The notes under the pieces were generated by a model that searched no databases, had not been told where the DNA came from, and saw only the letters and a program-made list of their open reading frames with translations. This document shows positions 2,476 through 44,650 of a DNA stretch of 64,000 bases, one piece after another; positions within the stretch are counted from its first letter, which is position 1; every line of letters begins with the position of its first letter. The stretch lies in contig JAMKCH010014158.1 of assembly GCA_023653785.1 (NCBI GenBank), positions 1 through 64,000 on the forward strand, in the 5' to 3' direction. Source of the DNA: Ophioderma brevispina (Eukaryota > Echinodermata > Ophiuroidea > Amphilepidida > Ophiodermatidae). The position numbers and the translations under genes were made by a program.

Positions 2476-3497
2476 CAGGCCACTAACAGAACAGCGAATT
2501 CAAACGGCATCAACTTCCGGTGCTAGTCTTTGTCAAAGACTTAAGTAGGAGGGCGCTCTTACGCATATCGAACGGGTAACACAGACTTGACTAAAGATAG
2601 GACTGGTCACGAATATTATATAGTAAATTGAGCGTTATTTGAAATTACACTGTTTTGCACAAGGTTAATCCACTAGCTTCGACGGATTTTGACATTAATC
2701 ATGTTTCCTAAATTTTATCATGATATTACTAAGATATTTTGAAGAAAGGTTTAAGAGATAATTTATTAATGTTAGGGAGACTGAGGGGACTGCCATAGTA
2801 ACTGTAGTTAACAGTTCCCAAAATACCGTTTTGACATCCCCAATGCCCAATCGAGCAGACCGTGTCATACCCCCCCCCTTGTAATCTAATTCTCGCTACT
2901 TTCAGCTCTATTTTACGTTTTATTTGGTGAAAATCGGACATTTTATTTCCGATGCTCAGTTTTGATCAAAGTGCATTGACCACGCAAGTAAATAATATTT
3001 CTTCTGTTTCTGATTTTTTTTCGAAGCAGCTGGATTTACTTGTTATCTTTATTTTTGTCAAAGGCAGTTGATATTTAGAAAATGCCAAAAATAAATTAAT
3101 TTTGACTAATTATGTGGTTTAGATAAATTGACATTTCAAATCAAAACTGCAAAACATTTAAAATAAAATAAGTGTTTCTAGAATAATTAATGCCTATACT
3201 TTTTTTGCAATTTTTTCGGCAACTTTATAAATTTGCCCCCCCCCCAAAAAAAATTGGCACTTCTGAATGGTGTATTGTATATGACCACCAAAATTGACAC
3301 CCACAAATGTAGGTTTTATAATGCTCTGCAACTTAATGGGAGGGATTTTTGTTATCTGTCTTACTTTTTGCTTTATAAGCCTTCAAAAGTCAACTCCAGC
3401 AAGAAAAAATGATTTTGTGTGTGGCATGAATGTATACTGAATGTATATGCACACACCATCTCTACCTTTTATGAGCTAGCGTTAATGGTTTGCTTAA

Positions 3498-3845
3498 AGG
3501 TGCAACGAGAGATTTCAAATAAAAGGTGGCCCGAGAAAATGTGAAAATCTGATTTTGGCTCTGGTTGTGAAAGCTTTATATCAAAATATCCCCATCGTAA
3601 TAATAAGCTGAGAACTGTTTTGTGGTACAAAAATTTTGAAATTTGAAGTTCGTATAGGGCAAAGTACCGGAAATTCAGCCTATGTTTTTTATTGAATTAT
3701 AAAGTCATAAATACCAAATCAACCTTTTGTTCTTTTCAAGTATTTCTGTAAAATAAAAGGTAGGGTATCTATTGTGCATCTATATATATGAATCACTACC
3801 ATATCACAGAAACTATGGGATGACTTAAAATCTCTCGTTGCACCT
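3498..3845. mobile_element. TTAA-flanked MITE, family A, copy 1
   Basis: A 348-bp element with near-perfect terminal inverted repeats: AGGTGCAACGAGAGATTTCA at the left end and its complement at the right (ATCTCTCGTTGCACCT). TTAA flanks both ends (3494-3497 and 3846-3849), the target duplication expected of piggyBac- or Kolobok-type cut-and-paste transposases. There is no coding capacity, so it is non-autonomous. Three more copies lie at 12240, 16022 and 19140. Confidence 0.88.
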
Positions 3846-4124
3846 TTAAAATGAGCTGTCTCATGATAACATTTGAATTATTATTAAAGAAGGATCCCAA
3901 AAGAGGAAAATGTCTTTTTCCGGCTAGCATGAAGAAATGAATACAAAGTGTATGTCGATTTTCAACCAGTGATTAAGATGTTGCAAAGGGTATTTTTTTG
4001 AGAAAAAGAAATTCTAGTTAATAGACTGTATGAAGAAGGAGGGGCCAATGGTGCATTATTGCAAGTTGAACTCAAATACATTTGCGATCACGTAATTATA
4101 CATTAGTAAAATTCAAAGTATTAA

Positions 4125-10445: not shown

Positions 10446-11662
10446 ATGGCTAAACAATCACGCCCAATTAAGTGGGGTCATATAACATTTAAAAATTGTT
10501 CAGTGGTGTTGAAGGATATCAACAGCATTTTCTCATTTTCGCAACATGAGTTACAAGCTTCTTCTCCCAAGAAGTCTATGCAAAAAACAAAAAAGCAAAA
10601 GGGGAATTCTGACATAGAGAATAGGGGAAATCAAAAGGAAGCCTCACAGGGAGGGAAAGCTCAAACACCAAATACAAAAGCCCCAGCCCGGAAAAAGGTT
10701 AAAACATCAAGTTTAAACTTCCTCTACACGTGCCACTTTTGCAAGAAAGATTTCAAGCGCAAAAGAAATCTCAAATCTCATTTAATGATCCACACCGGCA
10801 TCAAGGCCTTTAAGTGCAAGACGTGTGGCAAAAGCTTTGTCTACCGCCACCAGCTTACATCTCACATGAAGACACACTCTGGAGCCAGGCCTTTTACCTG
10901 CGAATACAAAGGCTGCAAGAAGCGCTTTGCCTGGATTGCCAACCGGGCTGTCCACATGCGAATGCATTTGAAAGAGTTTCCTTACAAGTGTCAGCAGTGT
11001 GGAAAAGGATTTTACACTGGGGGTAACTTGAAGAACCATGTCAGAACACACACTGGTGAAAAACCTTATTCTTGTGGCATTTGCGGTAATACATTTGCCA
11101 CAACAAGTAATATGAGGATGCACGAGCGCCACAAGCACTCCACGTTTCGACCACATGTTTGTGGAACATGCGACCATGCCTTCGCTTCAAGCAAAGACCT
11201 GCGACAACACCAGAGAATCCACACTGGGGCTAAACCCTACCAGTGCCGTTACTGTAAGGAGTGGTACCGAACAATTGGCAATGTGCGGCGACATGAGCGT
11301 TGGCACACTGGTGAGAATAGATACGAGTGCAAGGTTTGCAAGAAAGTGTACACCCGTAAATATGGCTTGAACCAGCACATGCTAATTCATGAAGGGAAGT
11401 CTGAAATCAAGTGTCAATACTGTGACATGGTGTTTCACGCAAACACATATTGGAAGGCCACGAAAATCGCCATCGTGGGGAACGGCCCTACCAGTGTACG
11501 TTCTGTAAGAAACGATTCCATCACAAATCTACACTGGCAGTGCACTTGAGATCAAAACATACTGGAGGAGATAGTACCAATACAAAGAAAGCCAAAGATG
11601 CTAGAAGTGCTGGTAAAGTCAAAACAAAGAATAAGGAAAATGAAAGCATTAAATGTGATTAG
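10446..11662 (+). CDS. C2H2 zinc-finger protein, ~10 fingers, frameshifted
   Basis: A single-exon ORF encodes a nuclear, probably DNA-binding protein. The first ~90 residues are polar and Lys/Gln-rich with no KRAB, SCAN or BTB domain visible. Then follow tandem C2H2 fingers (C-x2-C-x12-H-x3-H): YTCHFC...H, FKCKTC...H, FTCEYKGC (C-x4-C), YKCQQC, YSCGIC, HVCGTC, YQCRYC, YECKVC, IKCQYC and YQCTFC. Several linkers follow the TGEKPY pattern (HTGEKPYSC, HTGAKPYQC). The frame breaks at about 11450: reading moves by -1 within finger 9, so the uninterrupted ORF stops at 11549, while finger 10 and a Lys-rich tail continue in the shifted frame to TAG at 11660-11662. A T lost from a short T run explains it: an assembly error, an allelic indel or an early pseudogene. 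The start at 10446 follows an in-frame stop at 10434. The target sites and orthologue are not recognised. Confidence 0.88.
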
Positions 11663-12239: not shown

Positions 12240-12838
12240 AGTGCCAACAAGAGATTTCAAGGCATCCATATTTTCTCTCATACATATACATAGTGGGGGT
12301 CAGGTTAGCAAAGTGGGTCTTCCCTGGCTTCGCTCCACTGTGGTCCCGGGTTTGACTCTTGGTCACGCCTGCGATTTCATGTGTTGGTTTCCAGTCCTGC
12401 TTCTAAAACTTGGCTTTCTTCTATATGATAATAAAATGAATTGAAATAAAGTGTCTTCGTGACACTAAAATGACATAATTGTGTTGATGTGTCGTTAAAT
12501 CCTAATACTTCCTCCTCCTCCTCATACATAGTGCTTTCATATAGAATTGAGACAACAGAATGGATTTCTTACCTTTTATTTGGTTAATTCTTAAAAGTGA
12601 AAACAAAAGGTGATTTTTATATGCTTATTTCAGTATAAAACATAGGCTGGATTTCCCATTTGCTCCAATAAAAAATTGAAAATTTCATAATTTTTCGTAA
12701 TTTGTTCCAAAGAAAGAACTCTGAGCTTAATCATTTCAGATGGGGATATTTTTGATTGAAAACTTTACATCAGTGCAAAAATCAGAATTTTCACATTTTT
12801 TGGTACACCTGTTATGTGAAATCTCTCTCGTTGCACCT
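12240..12838. mobile_element. TTAA-flanked MITE, family A, copy 2 (host of a SINE)
   Basis: TTAA flanks both ends (12236-12239, 12839-12842). The left terminus AGTGCCAACAAGAGATTTC is a mutated form and the right end CTCTCGTTGCACCT is near consensus. It is longer than its sisters because a tRNA-type SINE has inserted at 12296-12523. Without the insert it is about 360 bp. Confidence 0.85.
12296..12523 (+). mobile_element. tRNA-derived SINE with target duplication
   Basis: A Pol III A box (GTTAGCAAAGTGGG, about 12304-12317) and a B-box-like GGTTTGACTCT (about 12350-12360) lie at normal tRNA spacing. An unrelated body follows and ends in a (CTC)n tail at 12511-12523. The direct repeat ATACATAGTG flanks it (12286-12295 and 12524-12533). 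It sits within a family A MITE, so it is younger than that copy. The tail suggests mobilisation by a LINE that recognises a short simple-repeat 3' end (inference). Confidence 0.82.
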
Positions 12839-12842
12839 TTAA

Positions 12843-16021: not shown

Positions 16022-16387
16022 AGGTGAAATGAGAGATTTCAAAACAATTCTGCATTATGTAGTGATTTCATATAGATTAGGCACTCAATAAACTTTTTAC
16101 CCTGCATTTGGCTAAAGAAATGTCTTATTTGTGAAAATAAATGGTGATTTTGATTTGCTTATATTTCAATATTAAACATGGGTTGAATTTTGTGTTTGCT
16201 CCAATAAAAAATTTTACCTTTTTTGTACCAAAGAAAATGAACTTTTACATTTTTTGTACCAATTAAGGAAATCATAATCAGCTTATTCGATCAGATGTGA
16301 ATATTTTGATTAAAAGCAGTGCTCTGTGAAAAAAATCAGGGCTTTCAATTTTATAGGGACATGTGATGTGAATCTCTCATTGCACCT
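16022..16387. mobile_element. TTAA-flanked MITE, family A, copy 3 (degenerate)
   Basis: After TTAA (16018-16021) it starts AGGTGAAATGAGAGATTTC. It ends AATCTCTCATTGCACCT, where the right-hand TTAA has decayed to GCATGTAA. The interior matches copies 2 and 4 (GCTCCAATAAAAAATT, AATGAACTTT...). It is the most diverged of the four. Confidence 0.8.
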
Positions 16388-19139: not shown

Positions 19140-19482
19140 ACTTACACCAAAAGATTTTGAGGCATTGGTATTTTCTGTCAAATGTAGTGCTTTCATATAG
19201 GTAAGACACTCAATAGATTTCTTAACTTTTATTGACTACAGAAATGTCTTCAAAGTGAAAACAAAAGTGATTTTTGTATCCTTATATTTCAATCTAAAAC
19301 TTTGGCTGAATTTCTTATTTGCTCCTAAATTAGAAATTTAACAATTTCTGTACCAAAGAAATAAATCTCAGCTTAATCCTTTCAGATAGGGATATTTATG
19401 ATAGAAAGCTTTACATCTGTGCAAAAATCAGAATTGTAACATTTTTAGGAACACCTGTTATGTGAAATCTCTCGTTGCACCT
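19140..19482. mobile_element. TTAA-flanked MITE, family A, copy 4
   Basis: The right end GAAATCTCTCGTTGCACCT is consensus and is followed by TTAA (19483-19486). The left TTAA is at 19136-19139, with a strongly mutated left terminus (ACTTACACCAAAAGATTTTG). The interior aligns with copy 2 (GTAGTGCTTTCATATAG, CTCAGCTTAATC). Confidence 0.8.
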
Positions 19483-20079
19483 TTAAGTGAAATTATTCCT
19501 TTGGTAACCAGGAGTAAACAAGTCAATGGTGTCATCCACATGGCCACACGGTGCGTTTTCTCCAAGGCATTTGCTCTTTGCACTTTTGCAGTGGCATCAC
19601 CAGGGGCAGCTTCCCTCCTTGTTGGGATTTTTTCCCCCACTGAAGAATTAGTGAATTCTGCACATGTCCCAATTTACAGTGAAAACAGCATAGGCCTACA
19701 CTGTACTAACAAATTTTAATATATGCTTGATCCCCCTGGAAATATTATGTGCCCTCCCCCCCCCCTTTCCCCCTTAAAAAAAGCTGGTTACACCACTGCA
19801 CTTTTGGAATCTGCTTGTGGTTGTTATGTGACCATCCACCAGAGATGGTCGGTCGCTGTCAGGCTTTCTACAGATTTAATCACTAAAATATTTTGTTCTC
19901 GAGGGGTGTCACAAATGTCTGCTAGCTTCCAGGCTTTTATTGTACCATACTGTGAAAGGCATTGTGGTACAGTCGATCTAATTCTTTTCAAAGCAGATAG
20001 AATCACTGTATTAGCATCACACGATTAAACCGTCACCCCCCATCAGGTTTCTAACGAATCCTATAAGGAGGGTAGCTGG

Positions 20080-22392: not shown

Positions 22393-23411
22393 ACATTAAT
22401 TTTCAATAACACAATGTTTATATTTAAAACACAAAAAGTTCTAGCAAGCTATGCAGCTTTAAGGACGGCTGAGACCCAAGACCAAGGTTTCAAGACATAC
22501 CAAGTACTGGTACACGAGTCTATTAAATGACCCTAAATTTTTGGTGAATACCCTACAATAACAAAATATCAAAACTGACAAATTGTTTCATTAAGAGAAT
22601 CTTTGATTACGTCTGTTGAAGTGTAGATGTTTCACAAGCGGTCCAAAAGTAATGATTTTCATACCAGAAAATAGGCAACTTGATGGAGGGACTCAATTCA
22701 CACACAGTATATAGTTCTGCTCATTTAAGACATGAATTTCAACCATATTTAGTAATCGTCCAAACATTGTGATTCCAGTCATACAAACTATATCTCAAAT
22801 ATCGCTACAAGTTAAAATTACCGTTGGATCAAAGCGGATACTTTATTCTGAGGAATGAAAAAATCATGAACCACTTTAGTAAATAGTTTAACAGATAATG
22901 CAAATAAGAAACTTTACGTACTATATGAGCAGGATAATTTGTATTAATTTCTCAAATCTCACCATCTATCATAATTAAATGGGTGATACATTTTGACCAA
23001 CTGATTGGATTATCTATTCCTACAGTACATCCTATGCATATTTAAAATTTTATTGGGGCAAACATGATTTATTCCAGATATTTTTACAGAACTTTGTGGA
23101 GATTGCACAATAGAGGGCAATGTACATGCAAATCATGACCTATATGTAGGTTATGGCATGGTTCTTTCTGTCGATTTGTTTTACAGGAATGAGAGTTCTT
23201 GCATGCTCCCATTTTGTTGCTAGTGCTTAAAATTCTTCTAAAATAAGAGGCGATTTGCGCGTAGGTCAAACAGCTTGGAACAGTTTTGCAATTAATTTAA
23301 AATTTGCACAGTCAGGTTAACATATTGATCTGAAATGTGGTTTTTGACTGAAAAAAACAAATCCACTTAATATCTAGAAAACAATAATCTCAAAGTTGAT
23401 ATTCTTACATG
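22393..23411. other. Intergenic with partial family E copy
   Basis: No gene was seen. From about 23090 to 23275 the order AGAGGGC, ATCATG, CAGG, CCATTTTGTTGC, GCTTAAAATT, AATAAGAGGC, GGTCAAACAGCT parallels the right half of the TIR element at 17124-17507. This suggests a left-truncated second copy. Confidence 0.5.
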
Positions 23412-24595
23412 TGTAGCGGGCCAACTATTTGCCTCAGGATGGCCGGTCTAGAGGGAGTGGGGCAAGTAGGGCCAGTGGAAGGCACCCCCCCCCCACATTC
23501 CTATGTTTGTTTGCCACCCTGGGTAGGCGAGCTGGCAGAATGATTGGAAATTGGGATACTTACTAGGGATAGGTTTAATGATTAAAAGGACTGGTAGCGC
23601 TACAGTGACTAATTAATGAAATTAAGCAATTAACAGAAAATTCTTCGTCATATAACACTATCTAACATTTATTAACTAATGACAGGAATGAGGCGCCGAC
23701 GAAAAGAACATAATAATAAAGGAATAAAAAATATGCCACACCTCTATCTGTACAATTGTGGTTAATATGAAAGTCAAAGTTGAGGTGTGGTGTGTGGGTG
23801 TGTTGCCTGTGGTGTGTGTGTGAACTTTGAAGGTGAGTGAGGGTGGTGTGTGCGTTCTAACAAGACATTTGGGGCACCCTGACACAAACATACCTGTACA
23901 GTATATCCAGAATAAGTTTACCCAGGTCCATTCCATAAAGTAAACACAAGTCCATTGTTGGTTAAATTCGTCCAGCGCTCCAGCTTAAACCATGATTGCT
24001 CACAGTTTTATTTCAACACACAGCATGATGGGTACACAAAGTTATGTCAGTTCGAATCCCTTGTTACACTTGATATACGGCTTTTCTCCAACCCAGTTCT
24101 GGTTCAACGCTACCACTATCGAACTTTTCCATATTTAATAATATACTGAAGATGGTGTGAGTCTCTCTAAAGGAACCTGAATCGCCAACAACGTGTGTCC
24201 CAGCTAGGAAGGCTATGACTAGTTCTTCTCCTTGCCCGTCGCAAGGAGGTCTAAGAACACCCTCCACCTATAATATTTGTGTATATAATTTTCAATATGT
24301 TAATATGGGACTATGAATAAATAACACCGTCAAAGATCTTCCCAACCCCAATTTAAGGGCATTATAGTGTCATCCTGGACTGATATCATGCATAACCTAA
24401 AGCTCAATTGATCAAACATGTTTTTATACAAATAATTGGGAAAAGGTAAGTCGTTTCTTTTTATGGGGACATACTATATTACACTCTTATCCTACCAGTA
24501 CTCTGTCAAAAAGATCTCAGGTTAGGCAGCTCCCACCCAATGACCATCTGTTTTAAGTGATTTAGCAAGTGATGCTCTCAAGAAGTAAAACCATG
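23412..24595 (-). repeat. Left LTR (3' LTR of the minus-strand element)
   Basis: It aligns end to end with 26822-28055 through shared blocks such as GGACTGGTAGCGCT, CATATAACACTATCTAACAT, GGTTCAACGCTACCACTATC and GGCAGCTCCCACCCAATGA. A G/T-rich tract (about 23780-23850) is present in both copies. No purine tract was recognised on the minus strand inside it. Confidence 0.85.
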
Positions 24596-26803: not shown

Positions 26804-26821
26804 ATCCCACTCCTGACACAG
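26804..26821 (-). promoter_or_regulatory. Primer binding site for tRNA-Leu
   Basis: Minus-strand TGTCAGGAGTGGGAT is the exact complement of the 15 bases before CCA at the 3' end of common metazoan tRNA-Leu. It lies three bases inside the LTR edge. The expected TGG that pairs with CCA reads CTG, one or two substitutions. Confidence 0.8.
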
Positions 26822-28055
26822 TGTAGCGGGCCACATTTTTGGCCCTCATGATGGCCGTGCCTAGCGGGCGTGGCAAGTAGGGCCCTTGGAAGACCCATTC
26901 CTATGTTTTGTTTGACGGGTAGGCGACTTGCAGATGCTTGGAAATATAGGGCTAATTCCTAGGATAGTTTAGGATTAAAAGGACTGGTAGCGCTCAAGTT
27001 GACTATAAGGAAATTAAGCAATTAACCGAACATTCTTCAGGTCATATAACACTATCTAACATTTATTAACTAATGACATGATGAGCGCCCGAAAGAACAT
27101 ACTAATAAGGAAAAAAAACTAATGCCACCCTCTATCTGTAACCATGTGGTTAATTGAAAGTCAAGTTGTAGGTGTGTGTGGTGAGGTGTGTGTGGGGTTT
27201 GTGTGTGAACTTTGAAGTGAGTGAGGGTGTGTGCGTTCATAACAGACATTTTGGTGCACCCTGACAGGACTACCTGTTACAAGTATAAGTCCAGAATAAT
27301 TTTACACAGGTCCATTCCAAAGTAAACACAAGTTCCATTGTTGGGCCAATTCTTCCAGTCGCTCCAGGTTAAACAAGCTGATTGATCCACAACGTTATTT
27401 CCCCACAGCATGATGGGTACACAAAGTTATGTTCAGTCGAATCCATTGTTAACACTTGATATGACGGCTTTACTCAACACTGATAGTTCTGGTTCAACGC
27501 TACCACTATCAACTTTTCCATATTATAATATACTGAAGATGGTGTTAGTCTCTCTAAAGGAATATCGCCAGAACATATCTAAAAACTAAAATACACAAAC
27601 ACAAGCAAAAAAAAAAAATACTAGACTTGTGTCCCAGCTAGGATTGCTTGATCAAGTTCTTCTCCTTGCCACGTCGGCAAGCGAGTCTAAGAAACCCACT
27701 ACCAAACCTATATTTGTGTGTATATATTTAAACAATTTGTACTGATTTATCTGCGATAGAAAAAAAAATAAAACCTGTCAAAAGATCCCACCCAGATTAA
27801 GCAGGCATATAGTGTATTGCTTGACTGATCTTATCATGAATAAACTAAGGCTCATTGATCAAAAACATGTTTATTACAAATAATTGGGAAAAGGTAAAGT
27901 CTTATTCATGTTTTTAATGGGGAATACTATTATTACACCCTTAACCTATCAGTACTCTGTCAAAAAGATCTCGTTAGGCAGCTCCCACCCAATGATTCGT
28001 GAACCATCTGTTTTAAGTGTTTAGCAGTGATTCTCTCTCTCAGAAGTAACCATGC
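26822..28055 (-). repeat. Right LTR (5' LTR of the minus-strand element)
   Basis: The partner of 23412-24595. It carries an extra A-rich block (about 27566-27622) missing from the left copy, and lacks several short segments present there. It lies next to the primer binding site and so acts as the 5' LTR. Confidence 0.85.
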
Positions 28056-36100: not shown

Positions 36101-36102
36101 TA

Positions 36103-37077
36103 CAGGGTGTATCAGAAAGAACGTTACCCTCCGGACACGGCAAATTTTGCTTACTTAATCAATTCTTATCCTTGTTTTAGCATTATATTATGAAAATATG
36201 TACCGTTATGAACATATGGTGAAAACAAGAAATAAATTGGTGAAAAAATAACCAAACAATGACTATTTCCCTAAAAATGATGCAAACCTACTTTGTCCAC
36301 GGATATCATTAGCAGAAGAAACCATAGATACAAATATCCTCAACATAAAAATGTTTAAGACACTCCTGGCCAATAATACTTTCAAATTCCAAGGTCCATT
36401 GCTGTTTCTAGAGTTTATTGTTCAGTTCTCTACGCACTGCAGCATTATTTGCGGATGATTGCCCTGTTCTTTGACAACCACATCTCTCTTCTCGCACCTT
36501 TTTAAAATCTTGCCACGCTCCAGAATTTTTTTCTCTGTTCCCCTTGATCGCCATCTTACTGGGCACCCTACTTTGAGGAAAAACGTTTACCCATTCACGA
36601 TAAACGATGGTCCTTTAACCCAAGAGCAGTTCAGTAGAATGTCATTGTAGGAGTCACGCCCCAATGTCATTATTTGAAAAGTGCTCTTTAACCAAATTCA
36701 TATTTGCATTATGATGGGAGACGGGTGATAGGATTTAGGTCACTTCATGCTGAAGAACAAATTAAGTGCATGTTTCAGGTGCTTTTTAGACATTACATGT
36801 GAATAAATTAAATCTGAGGACTTACGTGTGCTCAAATCCATAAGAATTACAATGTACATGTTTCTCTGCTATTGCTAGCCGTCGACAAAGTAGGTTTGCA
36901 TTGTTTTTAGGGAAATAGTCATTGTTTGGTTATTTTTCACCGTTTTCTTTCTTGTTTTCATCATATGTTCATAAAGGTATATATTTTCATAAAATAAAGC
37001 TAAAACAAGGATATGAATTGATTAAGTAAGTAAAATTTGCCGTTTTTGGAGCGTAACGTTCTTTCTGAGACACCCTG
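36103..37077. mobile_element. Mariner-type element with ~195-bp inverted repeats
   Basis: A 975-bp element flanked by TA (36101-36102, 37078-37079). Its ends CAGGGTGTATCAGAAAGAAC and GTTCTTTCTGAGACACCCTG are inverted. Pairing continues for about 195 bases (AATAACCAAACAATGACTAT, CAAACCTACTTTGTC), so much of the element is palindromic. CAGGGTGTCTC ends and TA targets are typical of mariner-like elements. The 580-bp centre holds no intact transposase; the minus strand has faint, stop-riddled similarity to a helix-turn-helix region, which I do not count as evidence. Confidence 0.85.
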
Positions 37078-37079
37078 TA

Positions 37080-38682: not shown

Positions 38683-38927
38683 TTAATCACCTCAGTTGGA
38701 TAGATAGAACTTGGAGAGAAGCGTGAAGGTGTGTAATAATGCAATTTATTTTTGAAAATTATAGGCCAAAGTGTCTAGTGAAAGAATTCAACGGGTGCCA
38801 CCTTGGCACGGTTGGGCAATTTGAGGTCAGAGGTCACATACGCGGATTAAATTTATAAAATGCTTAATAAAGTTATAAAATGTCTCAAATTCTTTCTTAA
38901 GTCCAAAGGAGATATGCAGCATGATTC

Positions 38928-38990
38928 GCGCGCGTGTGTGTGTGTGGGGGGGGGGGGGGTGTCTGTCTGTCTGTGTGTTTGTGTGTGTGT
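38928..38990. repeat. Compound microsatellite (CG)n(TG)n, G run, (TGTC)n
   Basis: CGCGCGTGTGTG, then a run of about 14 G, then GTCTGTCTGTCTG and further GT repeats. The low-complexity tract lies just before the 165-bp satellite array. Confidence 0.85.
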
Positions 38991-39621
38991 CAAACTTTTG
39001 GTAGCCACTTTTGGTTAAAATGTTGTTTAGCATTTTAGTGCAGTGATGGATCAAGTTCATACTTGGTGTACTTATACATTGAGGCAAGGGGTCTTATGTG
39101 GGGTCACAGGTGAGAGGTCAAAGTTCATTCAGGGGTCACTTAGGGTCATTATATCTTGTGCATGTGGTATACACTTTTGGTTAAATTTGGTAGACACTTT
39201 AGGTTAACCCTAAAAGGCCCGGCGGAATCCGCCCCCCCCCCCCCGACATTTTTCTCGTATCTCACCTATTTGTTATTTTTTCACGCCGAAACTACATGAC
39301 TTCTTTCTTTGAAGCTTGCGCTCGATTTAAGACCATTTTGACAAATCGGACCTACGGTTATGACGCGGCGTTACGTAATCGCGCACTGCGTCGAATAAAA
39401 AGCTATTTCCCATTGAAATTACACGGAACAGTCAGAAATCCATTTTTGTGCTAAGAATACAGTTACACTATGTTTCATCTTATTTATTTGACTTATTTGT
39501 AGTAAGGGCATGTGTGCGCATACTTTGACACACATCATGGCCAAAAAATCCAACTTTTGCTTGAAAAAATGTCGAAAAACCATGATTTTTGCGATTTTTT
39601 TAGATATTTCGCATTTTTGCA

Positions 39622-39652
39622 TGACGTCATGTTTGACGTCACTGTGACGTCA
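39622..39652. promoter_or_regulatory. Three perfect CRE palindromes in 31 bases
   Basis: TGACGTCA occurs at 39622-39629, 39634-39641 and 39645-39652, and again at 39919-39926, all inside the piggyBac-like element. The octamer is the CREB/ATF consensus site. Whether it is bound is unknown. Chance or element-internal repetition are alternatives. Confidence 0.6.
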
Positions 39653-39758
39653 TACAAGGTATGTTTGTACTTTTTTGGTATCAATGGCTCCGGGAGTCCT
39701 GCTTCCATTGGTACCACACATATGATAGTTCATCAATCCGTTTCCGAGTTCCGAGATA

Positions 39759-39955
39759 CTATAGTTTGTGTCATCTTAAGTTGAAGGTGACGTCCACTGC
39801 GACTTTTATGTTGCGCACCCATGAATCGCGCGCGCGCTATGCTTGGAATCAGAGCATGATACGCACGCGAATAAAGGCGGCACGATCGAGACGCTAGGGG
39901 GAATGCACATACGCATAATGACGTCACCTTCAACTTTAGATGAGACAAAGTATAG
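39759..39955. repeat. Foldback family J, copy 1 (nested)
   Basis: CTATAGTTTGTGTCATCTTA, AGTTGAAGGTGACGTC on the left pair with GACGTCACCTTCAACTTTAG, ATGAGACAAAGTATAG on the right. The centre is GC-rich with CGCGCGCGC. The same ends occur at 46646-46808. It lies inside the piggyBac-like element. Confidence 0.8.
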
Positions 39956-40510
39956 GTGGGGTGGAATGCGCCCCCCCCCCCCCCCCGGCGGTGAGATGGT
40001 CCAAAAAGCCCGGGGCTTTTAGGGTTAAAGTGTGTGCTTTTAGGGCAGTGATGTGATGGATCAAGGTGTTCATACTGGTGGACCGTATTTATACATTGAA
40101 GCAAGGGGTCTTAAGTGGGGTCACAGGTGACGAGGTCAAAGGTCATTCAGGGATCACTTAGGGTCATTATATCTTGTGCATGTGGTATACACGTTGGTTT
40201 TTAAAATGTTAAGCATTAAAAGTACAATGATGGATCAAGTTCATACTTGGTATGCTTATACATTGATGCAAGGGGTCTTATGTGGGGTCACAGATGCATA
40301 GATGAGGAGGTCAAAGATCATCATGACACTTAGGGTCATATATCTTGTGCATGTTGTATACCTGTTTGGATATAAAATGTCTAGCATTAGTGCAGTGATG
40401 GATGGATCAAGTTCCATTACTTGGTATGCTATAATTGAGGAAGGGGTCTTAAGTGGGGTCATAGGTTACAAGTCGAATGTCATTCAGGGGTTCACTTAGG
40501 CGTCATTATA

Positions 40511-43016
40511 GGGCCATTCTCAAAAAAGTGAAGCCAATGATCATCATCTTTGATCCACAATTGGTTTGCATTTTGCTTAAAACAAGTAACCGTGTTAATG
40601 TTCTTTTAGTACTTTGCGAGATCATCTACACGGACATATATAGTTTTCTATATTTTTAAATATCATGATCTCGGTCATTTTACTCCATAAACACCTAAAA
40701 ACATGCCAAAAATGGTTGTTTCCGTAGCTCTTGTGCACGTATATTTTCAAGCTACGGTACCTCAAGAACAAAATTTATTCCATACCAGTGCGTTTTTGTT
40801 CTTACAATGATCAATGATATTGATAGGTATCAATCTTCCCGATAACATTCTTGGTAAGCTACAAGAAGCCAAAATATGGATTCCGCGAAATCAATGTATA
40901 TGCGTTATCAGTGTATTAACTCTCAATATATGAAAAATGTTAACTGCAATGATAATACCTTTTGCATAGCTCAAAGCACAAATATGTACATTGGTTATTC
41001 CATAACATCAAAAATGCTTGAGTTGCAATTTGGCCCGATAAAAAATTATATTCCAAAATAAGATGCGTCCGTTTTAAGCATGTATTATTACGTTATAGGC
41101 AAATCTAAATTAAGTGAGAGTTCTAGACTACTAAACGATATACTTGGCTATAGACACACAAACCTGACCTGATTAGTTCGGAATAACCAGGATTACATGC
41201 ACTCGCCCAAGTATTAGACACTTGATGAAAAGCATCAAATGATATTACGTTACGTATATACGTGATCCAAAACGAAGACGAAAAAATACAGGAATCCTCT
41301 ATTAAAAGTCGCAGGTAAATTTTTCGCTTCTGCCAATTGCTCTCGAAGTTATGGTTGAGAATTGTTGCACCAAATAATGTAAGTTAGTCACTTTCTTTAA
41401 CCGTTTTACCAAAATAGTTTTTTGCGTAATAATTATTTACACATGCAGGGTACACATTGTGCGGGTTTGTGCACTTTGTGGTAATATATAGGGAAGTATA
41501 ATGTCTTATAAGTACTGCCACAGCCGCATACCGTACACTGTGCACGGGGGCTATGTACACATGCCATTAGGTGTGCTTATAGGGGTTTTAGTTGCCACAT
41601 GTATGACTGCCTCGTGCGTGAGATAACTAATATACGCAAAGTTTTAGGGCCTATTTTTAATATCTTTTTGTACAATTTTTGTTCACAAGTCTTTAAAAGG
41701 TCATAGTTATTATAGAATGTGTGAATGATAGAAACAGAGAAGTTTTTAAGTCTGACTTTCCCACAAGTAGATTAGGCCAAGGGAAAAGAATATAGGCCTA
41801 TAGACCTCAGTGTCGGCGGTTAAAAAACCACTGTGCAAACTTCATATATGTTAAATCTGAACATATATACATCAGTAAAAATTATATTTAATTCTTTTTT
41901 TTAGCGGGATCGTAAAAATTGAAACAGAACTTCGGATGGAGACTCAACCCCTGACTCAACGAAGCTAAACGCGTCCAGAAATATTATATACTAAGAGCTG
42001 AATTACCAACCCGAGGCACAGAAAAGAAGGGAATATGGCTGTGATTCTCCAAAGAAGCCACAAGCCCAGAAAATAGGAAAGAAAATGGCAGCCGCTGCTC
42101 TGTGGGAATTAAGGCGATTTCAAATGAAAATAAAGTGATAACCAAATATGACACGGATGGTATAAAGGGCCAAAATTGGAGACACTATACAGGACTTACT
42201 GCGGTGTGAAAGCAGTAGCTTTGAAAGTTATTAATTTAGGAGATATAGGCCTACGATGTGGTTTTATAAAAGACCAAAAATAACCTAATTCGAAAAAAGT
42301 GGAAGCTTACATTTTGTCATTGTGTAGTAAAAAACAACCTATTTACGTATTTCACTGTCATTATTTAAGCGATGTGAATTTGAAAGTGGATTTACAAAAT
42401 TTACGTTATTTACTGCATTATGATGTAGATTACGTTATCCATACCAACAACGGAAAACGAGGATATGAAATAGATTACATCGTACTTCATTGCAAGTGAT
42501 AATGAATTTTAAAAGAGGGTTAAAATATGCTATCCCCAAAGGCAAATAAATTTAAGCACTAAGAATATCAGGATACCATCCGTATTGAAAAAAAGATCTT
42601 GTATGGTTTTGAAAACTTTCTATATCGATAAAAAACAAATAGACGTTAGAGAGAATGCCGGTTTTAAAGTACACATTTGATCATACCAGTAATTGCTTTC
42701 ACTACAAGCATTCCTGATATGTCTCGTACCATTAAGTGAGAATTCATGAATTCAAGTGTTAACACTTCTTTTAAAATCAAAATTTATCCGAGATGCATAT
42801 CGGATAACGTAATATACAAGGCCCAAAAAACAGGAAAAAACAACTTAATTTGAAGGTTCAAATGTAAAAATATGGGAACAGTGGTGTTCATAACTTTTGT
42901 TGTTCCATGATGTATGATATGTTAGCTAATAAAAATGTATGATAAATACATTTTTGCGCGACTTTGTTTTTCCGATTTTTCAAATTGAAGTGGCGTCACT
43001 TTTTTGAGAATAGCCC
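40511..43016. mobile_element. 2.5-kb TIR transposon, ATA target duplication
   Basis: It starts GGGCCATTCTCAAAAAAGTG then AAGCCA and ends TGGCGTCACTTTTTTGAGAA then TAGCCC, a 26-bp inverted repeat with two mismatches. The satellite sequence CATTATATCTTG is split so that ATA appears on both sides (40508-40510, 43017-43019), a 3-bp duplication. At 2,506 bp it could once have coded for a transposase, but only short ORFs remain (for example 42299-42499) and none is recognised. GGG-starting ends with 3-bp duplications recall Zator-like elements, an assignment I cannot test here. Confidence 0.85.
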
Positions 43017-43432
43017 ATATCTTGTGCACGTGGTATACACTTTTGGTTAAAATGTTGTTTAGCATTTAAGTACAGTGATGGATCAAGTTGATACTTGGTA
43101 TGCTTATACATTGATGCAAGGAGTCTTATGTGGGGTCACAGATGAGGAGGTCAAAGATCATTCATGGGTCACTTAGGGTCATTATATCTTGTGCATGTTG
43201 TATACATGTTTGGTTAAAATGTCCAGCATTTAAGTGCAGTGATGGATCAATGCTTAAACATTGATGCAAGGGGTCTTATGTGGGGTCACAGATGAGGCCA
43301 AAGGTCATTCAGGGGTCACTTAGGGTCAGATCTTGTGCATGTGGTATACTCTTGTGCATGTGGTATACACTTTTGGATCAAATGTTGTCTAGTCTTTTAG
43401 TGCAGTGATATGGATCAAGTTCATACTTGGTA

Positions 43433-43867
43433 CCCAGGTCAAAATTCCAGTTGATCCTAGATTAAAGTTGTTCCATTTTCCGTGACGTTGTGAAAGCAGA
43501 TATAGTCCGGCGGGAGCCACAGTCCGGGGCTCCGATAGACGATAACGGAATAAAGCGTGAAACTAATGTTGCGTGAAGAGTCAACTGAATCGATTGCCCT
43601 ATTGTTCACCATTGTTCCCGGACTATGAGTACGCCGGACGATAATTACTTCTACAACGGAACTAACTGGTTTCAACTGTTTGTAACTGGTCTTAACTGGC
43701 AACTGGTCAATAAAAAACCTAGTTGAAAATTGTTCCATTTGCCGTCACGGAATCAACTGATTCAACTGGATTCAACTGGATATTCAACTGGGATCAACTG
43801 GATTTCAACTGGTTCCAGTTGAAACCAGTTGGAATTCAACTGGGATCAATTGGAATATTGATCTGGG
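43433..43867. mobile_element. TA-flanked MITE with TTCAACTGG internal repeats
   Basis: The left end CCCAGGTCAAAATTCCAGTT and right end AATTGGAATATTGATCTGGG are inverted repeats of about 24 bp with a few changes. TA is duplicated (43431-43432, 43868-43869) within the satellite word CTTGGTATGCTTA. The right third is a run of TTCAACTGG/CCAGTTGAA half-sites (43750-43850). TA targets indicate a Tc1/mariner-type mover. Confidence 0.85.
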
Positions 43868-43999
43868 TATGCTTATACATTGATGCAAGGGGTCTTATTC
43901 GGGTCACAGATGAGGAGGTCAAAGGTCATTCAGGGTCATTGGTATATATTTTTGGTAAAAATGTTGTCTAGCATTTTAGTGCAGTGATGTGGCATATCT

Positions 44000-44650
44000 T
44001 TTTTTCCAAAACACAGGTTACGTTAGCAGACTGTATTCAGGCAAGAGTGACTAACTTGTTGTTTGTTTATGAAGTCCCACCAGTTCTGTTTTTCGCTGTA
44101 CACTGTTGAAACATTAAAAGTCATTCAAAATATATAATTTTATACATTCCTATATACTTATTCTTCAACCACATAATCGGACGACCTATTTGGAACGGCT
44201 GTCCCTATTTTTATCCTTAGGATGCCTAATTAACAAGGTATAGGTCAAAATAGGTCAACGGTTAACAAATATTTTGCACAGGGGGTCAATTTAAAAGTTT
44301 CAATGTAAATAAGAATAGCCTTAATATATTCATCATAAAAAAATCAAAAAAAACATGTATAGTTTGCTATATTCTCAAAGCTCATATTTAATGCCATGAC
44401 AAAAATATGGCCACGTGGACAATAGGGTTGTTTACATTTCAGCTATATTGTTACCTCAAGGAGATATCTTATAGCAAACCATACATTTTCAGATTCCTTG
44501 TGTCAAAACATAATATGCCATTACTTTCAACTACGTACAGGCATCTTCAAAATATGCCGTGTACAATGATTTTATTCTCTTTGACCTATTTTGACCTATA
44601 CGTCGATAATTAGCCATTTTGCAGCCACTTCAGCATTTACTTGTTCATGG
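44000..44650. other. Intergenic, no gene seen
   Basis: Small ORFs only. Short words such as GACCTATTTTGACCTAT (about 44582) and ATAGGTCAAAATAGGTCAAC (about 44240) are inverted copies of each other about 340 bases apart, hinting at a decayed inverted-repeat element. Confidence 0.45.

Follow-up and report, generated by a model that had tools for sequence, protein, structure and literature searches.

The window analysed here is a stretch of 64,000 nucleotides from the echinoderm Ophioderma brevispina (assembly GCA_023653785.1, contig JAMKCH010014158.1, positions 1 to 64,000 of the forward strand), and it contains an array of a ~165-bp tandem repeat broken by three inserts of 817, 2,506 and 435 bp (Table 1). 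A preliminary description of this locus had given these lengths, with their coordinates and the TTAA, ATA and TA that flank the inserts, and all of them proved exact. It had also stated that the three elements are unrelated and that each duplication can be read against intact units of the array, and we came to the same view. The inserts were removed and the units aligned; the tandem order of the units is preserved on either side of every insert, and the joined flanks fit intact neighbouring units. For the TTAA insert the joined flanks read GGTTAA, which is present in units u0, u4 and u5 and absent from u2, u3, u6 and u7. For the ATA insert they read CATTATATCTTG, which recurs at three of the other junctions between units, two more having a different sequence, and for the TA insert they read CTTGGTATGCTTATACATTGATG, as in u2 and u4. 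The genome (2.51 Gb in 65,844 contigs) was searched for further copies of each insert, and all three pairs of ends agree with copies elsewhere.

Table 1. Position of the host element, its modules and the elements inserted in it (window coordinates).
Feature	Position	Length	Strand	Boundaries and remarks
Host element, old HINE-like (non-autonomous Helentron) copy	38893-44212		+	Homology to other copies; 5' boundary uncertain by ~10 bp
Left module with GTCT microsatellite	about 38893 (or 38901)-38991		+	Alignment to locus L042; 5' subterminal repeat decayed in the window copy
Repeat array	about 38992-43989		+	~7 units of ~165 bp, 144-197 bp once inserts are removed
Element 1, TIR element, CCCTAAAAGGCCCGG ends	39208-40024	817 bp		TTAA at 39204-39207 and 40025-40028; ends confirmed by genome copies
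Element 4, nested in element 1	39762-39952	191 bp		33- to 36-bp terminal inverted repeats; TA at 39760-39761 and 39953-39954
Element 2, non-coding-looking TIR element, GGGCCATTCTC ends	40511-43016	2,506 bp		ATA on both sides; ends confirmed by genome copies
Element 3, MITE, CCCAGGTCAAAATTCC ends	43433-43867	435 bp		TA on both sides; about 264 bp without nested element 5
Element 5, Ginger1-type MITE TGTGA...CTACA, nested in element 3	43489-43655	167 bp		Flanks ACGT (43485-43488) and ACGG (43656-43659)
Right module	43990-44212		+	Homology to other copies stops at 44212

Repeated DNA is found along the rest of the window as well. A scan for terminal inverted repeats with a flanking duplication returned 21 loci, some of them mispairings of related copies; 20 dinucleotide shuffles gave 0.45 on average and 2 at most. 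Of the 21, 17 lie outside the array. An inverted-repeat structure at 44222-44617 begins ~10 bp past the right end of the HINE copy, and a foldback element of 975 bp (36101-37079) has TA on both sides, very long inverted repeats and CAGGGTGTATCAGAAAG ends. A TTAA-flanked dispersed family with the end TTAAAGGTGCAACGAGAGATTT has related window copies at 3494-3849, 12529-12842, 16057-16387 and 19182-19486. The window also holds a direct repeat of 1.2 kb (23411-24595 and 26821-28054, 78% identity) and, at 10446-11549, an open frame of 367 codons that encodes numerous C2H2 zinc fingers, in keeping with animal DNA. Of three protein searches, one pointed to a zinc finger, one to a reverse transcriptase and one had no hit. 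Exact scans for four motifs in viral contigs and for one motif in genome contigs gave no match, which an animal genome would lead one to expect.

The array had been described as a satellite, and this part of the description did not stand, because the tandem units form the central part of a dispersed HINE-like element with modules on either side. A search with a 431-bp array query gave 93 genome matches (the best 40 of 2,908 first-look candidates were scored); among the scored candidates, units of different loci are mostly 71-91% identical. A free-standing satellite array that chances to contain three elements would agree with the ~165-bp tandem units and with the retention of their order across each insert, but we consider it very improbable. 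Against it, homology to other loci continues rightward beyond the array and stops sharply at 44212, most arrays are bordered by conserved modules that contain subterminal inverted repeats and a microsatellite, and the arrays seen among the scored candidates are short and spread across dozens of contigs. For the loci examined, a free-standing satellite is rejected, since HINE modules flank most of the arrays.

Similarity to the modules was found beside the arrays on the left at 22 of 27 loci, on the right at 22 of 27 and on both sides at 17 of 27; the 27 are the window plus 26 loci fetched from the genome, in stretches some of which are possibly too short, and the module queries were taken from the window, L039, L041 and L042, four loci that match by construction. 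With a stricter pattern search, the left module was found at 17 and the right module at 18 of the 27 loci (20 right hits). The stricter left pattern had no match in the window copy, where the left module is decayed yet can be aligned to that of L042 (the 5' part scores 29, and the best of 200 shuffles reached 22). According to the alignments, the left module reads TTTTTAGGTCGTCCGATAGGAAGACCTTATGGCAGC followed by GTGT/GTCT/GTCA runs and the right module ends in CGGACGACCTATTTGGGACCGCTGTCCCTATTTTT. The subterminal inverted repeats are AGGTCGTCCGAT on the left and ATCGGACGACCT on the right, an exact inverse over 12 nt in, for example, the left module of L042 and the right module of L043. By eye, a complementary repeat, AGGAAGACCTT, adjoins the subterminal repeat, and GTCT/GTCA runs are seen in left modules. 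Several copies carry a 3' palindrome, GGGACCGCTGTCCC; that of L043 folds with z -2.09 (9 of 200 shuffles fold equally), and no fold was obtained for the palindrome of the window copy. HINEs go into TT at T-rich sites and do not duplicate the target; of the 17 copies with a left module by the stricter pattern, 13 have TT directly 5' of it.

HINEs are described, in the available portions of two reports, as having on the left a 5' subterminal repeat, a complementary repeat and a microsatellite that is often GTCY, in the middle satellite-like repeats mostly of 160-180 bp, and on the right a 3' subterminal repeat and a palindrome, and as being placed at T-rich sites (PMC7492417, PMC4067079). The host element follows the same module plan, with ~160-180-bp core repeats and an apparently T-rich site, as the Pacific oyster Cg_HINE (PMC7492417) and the mite and fly DINE-1/HINE (PMC4067079) do in the parts of those texts that we could use. 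The likeness to published HINEs in these partial sources is one of anatomy alone, and the sequences of the repeats and modules are, as far as seen, own to this genome. Helitron Rep matches number 60 in the genome, several of them open; eight fetched Rep loci on six contigs held no autonomous Helentron with these HINE ends. The host element presumably moved by the rolling-circle mechanism. Among the other copies, the arrays at L066 and L070 have two right ends each, with the same flank after both, and are tandem partial copies, while L041 and L044 have a common flank of more than 1 kb at 76-97% identity and so are copies of a larger duplication.

The preliminary description had counted three insertions. 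The three primary ones are confirmed, but the total is five, with elements 4 and 5 nested inside inserts 1 and 3. In the genome search with element 1 (best 40 of 3,453 candidates scored), the scored copies elsewhere match positions 1-541 and ~751-817 at 85-94% identity, and the stretch between remains unmatched. Element 4 is missing from all 21 other element 1 copies displayed, and in most of them the site reads GAGATACTAGGG. Because these copies do without it, and because it has long inverted repeats between TA, the 817-bp insert is composite, with element 4 nested in it. Without element 4 and its TA, element 1 measures about 624 bp; the 22 other copies with both ends are 584-676 bp long. Both ends were located in 23 of 30 loci, the window included, and TTAA stands on both sides in 19 of these 23. 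As for element 4, no second copy was found in 270 kb of fetched loci; when the fetched loci were checked for elements 3 and 4, loci with short stretches being left out of the listing, the window copies were the only ones among the loci listed. Members of the piggyBac superfamily have CCY ends. Element 1, which is non-coding, resembles piggyBac-like MITEs in its TTAA duplication and its CCC... ends, and we infer that it is a TTAA (piggyBac-like) MITE.

The three duplications of the preliminary description are present at the locus, but the window copies of elements 2 and 3 are poor guides to the duplications of their families, which are a 4-bp ATAT-like sequence for the ATA element and varied 2-bp sequences for the TA element. 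Of the 39 places besides the window that were scored for element 2 (best 40 of 675 candidates), 15 align in one piece from position 1 to 2505/2506, at 76-87% identity. The ends were fetched for 20 copies, and both were located in 19. An exact 4-bp duplication flanks 6 of the 19 copies (ATAT three times, GTAT, ATAC and CTAT), an exact 3-bp ATA flanks one, three have a 2-bp match and nine have no exact match of at least 2 bp; two further copies, which overlap with these last two groups, have 4-bp flanks with one mismatch. The comparison of flanks suggests that this family duplicates 4 bp, in most cases of the form NTAN, ATAT being an example. The window ATA is probably ATAT minus one base at the left junction, because exact 4-bp duplications are found in 6 of the 19 other copies and an exact 3-bp one in a single copy. 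PIF/Harbinger elements make a 3-bp duplication of the TTA/TAA type, and this class was rejected for element 2 on the same counts (6 of 19 exact 4-bp against 1 of 19 exact 3-bp). Sola2 elements, in the portion of the source available, duplicate 4 bp of AT-rich sequence, for example ATAT (PMC3627910). Element 2 has the 4-bp AT-rich duplication in common with them and is likened to them by this duplication alone, not by its ends; it looks non-coding, with no evident transposase, and Sola2 is a candidate class for it.

A search with the 435-bp window insert (best 40 of 2,716 candidates scored) placed nearly all scored matches at positions 54-227, a segment shared with a separate and abundant family. 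At C15303 and C6801, positions 1-55 of element 3 are joined directly to position 224 onward. With the copy at L105 as query (self excluded; best 40 of 1,227 candidates scored), copies of about 260-275 bp were recovered at 90-95% identity to L105, and 21 of the 22 other copies measure 257-271 bp. An exact 2-bp duplication flanks 20 of these 22 (AA in 6, TT in 5, TG in 3, CT in 2, TA in 2, AT in 1 and CA in 1). Since many different 2-bp sequences are duplicated across copies, the element 3 family is not TA-specific. TA accounts for 2 of the 20 exact duplications, and the TA-specific Tc1/mariner class was rejected for this family.

The copies of element 3 at L105 and L106 are without element 5 at the site where the window has it. 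The empty site at L106 reads GTGACGGAACT, and L106 carries an element 5 of its own at a different site. The core of element 5, TGTGAAAG...CTACA, is 166 bp long and common to all 18 fetched copies; in 15 of them the two 4-bp flanks are the same (14 CCGG and 1 CCGT), and in 3 they differ at one base. The 18 copies agree with the window copy at 99.4-100% of the aligned positions, with gaps uncounted, the window core taken one base short and the copies being the best-scoring ones, so that the figure overstates the likeness of the family. The ends are TGTGA and TGTAG, and the inverted repeats are imperfect and can be aligned over about 41 bp, the range for Ginger1, whose transposase is Gypsy-integrase-like, being 40-270 bp. 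Ginger1 has, as reported in the accessible part of the source, TGTNR ends and duplications of CCGG (75%) or CCGT/ACGG (24%) (PMC2836005). Element 5 agrees with what that part gives in its TGTNR ends and in duplications that belong to the published set (CCGG, CCGT, ACGG), and it differs in its size of 166-167 bp, in being without coding capacity and in its imperfect ~41-bp inverted repeats (PMC2836005). A literature search found no paper that joins Ginger1, MITE and CCGG, a result that does not show such MITEs to be unpublished. Given this near-identity of the fetched copies (99.4-100%), the Ginger1-type MITE may belong to a family that was active recently; that it is now bursting would be a bolder and unlikely reading.

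What the data show directly is how the elements are nested, with their ends, duplications and empty sites. That unrelated repeats were pasted together by the assembly deserves mention, as the draft is fragmented into 65,844 contigs and the locus was judged from the assembly and not from reads. We hold such an artefact to be exceedingly improbable, given that the element ends match copies elsewhere to the base, that the duplications match the empty sites and that misjoins would not create target duplications.

We explain the locus, at a probability of roughly 0.88, as an old HINE-like copy with five nested insertions, three primary and two secondary, all by ordinary independent transposition. 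An element with HINE anatomy and internal ~165-bp repeats would have landed long ago and then decayed. Three cut-and-paste insertions into the HINE repeats would have followed, those of a TTAA (piggyBac-like) MITE, of a TIR element of 2.5 kb that duplicates 4 bp and of a MITE that duplicates 2 bp. Then the 191-bp TIR element would have entered element 1, and the Ginger1-type MITE element 3. The divergence of the copies agrees with this order, array units being mostly 71-91% identical, element 1 89-92% and element 5 99.4-100%. Points that weigh against the explanation are the palindrome of the window copy, which does not fold, its decayed 5' subterminal repeat, the failure to find an autonomous Helentron with these ends at the eight Rep loci, the single copy of element 4 among the loci listed and the three primary insertions where 0.47 are expected. 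The transposase of each element is presumed. Every step could have been an independent transposition into tolerant DNA, and a common targeting would be unnecessary.

The preliminary description had seen in the array a transposon trap, which did not hold up as far as it can be tested, since the 26 other HINE copies (23.6 kb) also carry interruptions, seven interior ones in six copies, and inverted-repeat elements are dense across the whole window. Among the interruptions, a 353-bp insert (L042 3636-3988) and a 99-bp insert (L043 3457-3555) have exact 8-bp duplications, CTTCAACC and GATGAAAG respectively, and CAG-type ends, and we take both to be hAT-like; another, of 1,130 bp, terminates in a run of A.

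A trap would mean that the array attracts or preferentially retains inserts of different transposases. Three primary insertions in ~1.55 kb, against 0.47 expected, have for this copy alone a probability of three or more of 0.012, in a rate calculation where the window copy was entered at 1,571 bp (end 44234), ~22 bp too long for a true end at about 44212. A negative binomial that allows for uncertainty in the rate gives 0.018, and rates taken from 8, 12 or 17 elements elsewhere in the window give 0.0014, 0.0044 and 0.011. However, this locus was singled out for its striking look, and the chance that some copy among 27 has at least three inserts is ~0.28. The query used to fetch the comparison copies was itself uninterrupted, and this depresses the number of inserts counted in them. 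In addition, the duplicated targets (TTAA, ATAT-like and any 2 bp) are frequent in AT-rich DNA, and the rest of the window is also dense in inverted-repeat elements, with the 17 loci noted above. A trap at this array appears decidedly unlikely. The broader proposal that HINE repeat arrays are an insertion sink, hit or retained well above the rate of similar DNA and in which unrelated transposases stack, is unlikely too, if a little less so. Shared targeting as an established fact was rejected, given that other HINE copies are interrupted too and that a copy with three is expected at ~0.28 among 27; the insertions probably occurred without targeting.

Nested insertions in Helitron and satellite loci have been called 'transposon graveyards' in the part of a report available to us (PMC12628747). 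The present locus is like them, as far as that part describes them, in having elements within earlier elements and a Helentron with internal satellite-like repeats, and unlike them in that each of the five steps is readable at single-base resolution (PMC12628747). All of its components are of known kinds and a new mechanism is unnecessary. Five nested insertions in an old HINE-like copy are a clean but ordinary case of transposon-in-transposon nesting. The tandem units help in reading the duplications, and the TA one points to the wrong transposase until more copies are examined. These 5.3 kb are a readable fossil record of a Helentron-type element, three later inserts and two more into those, with the pre-insertion sequences known, and the finding indicates that short 'satellites' of draft genomes can be the cores of transposons.
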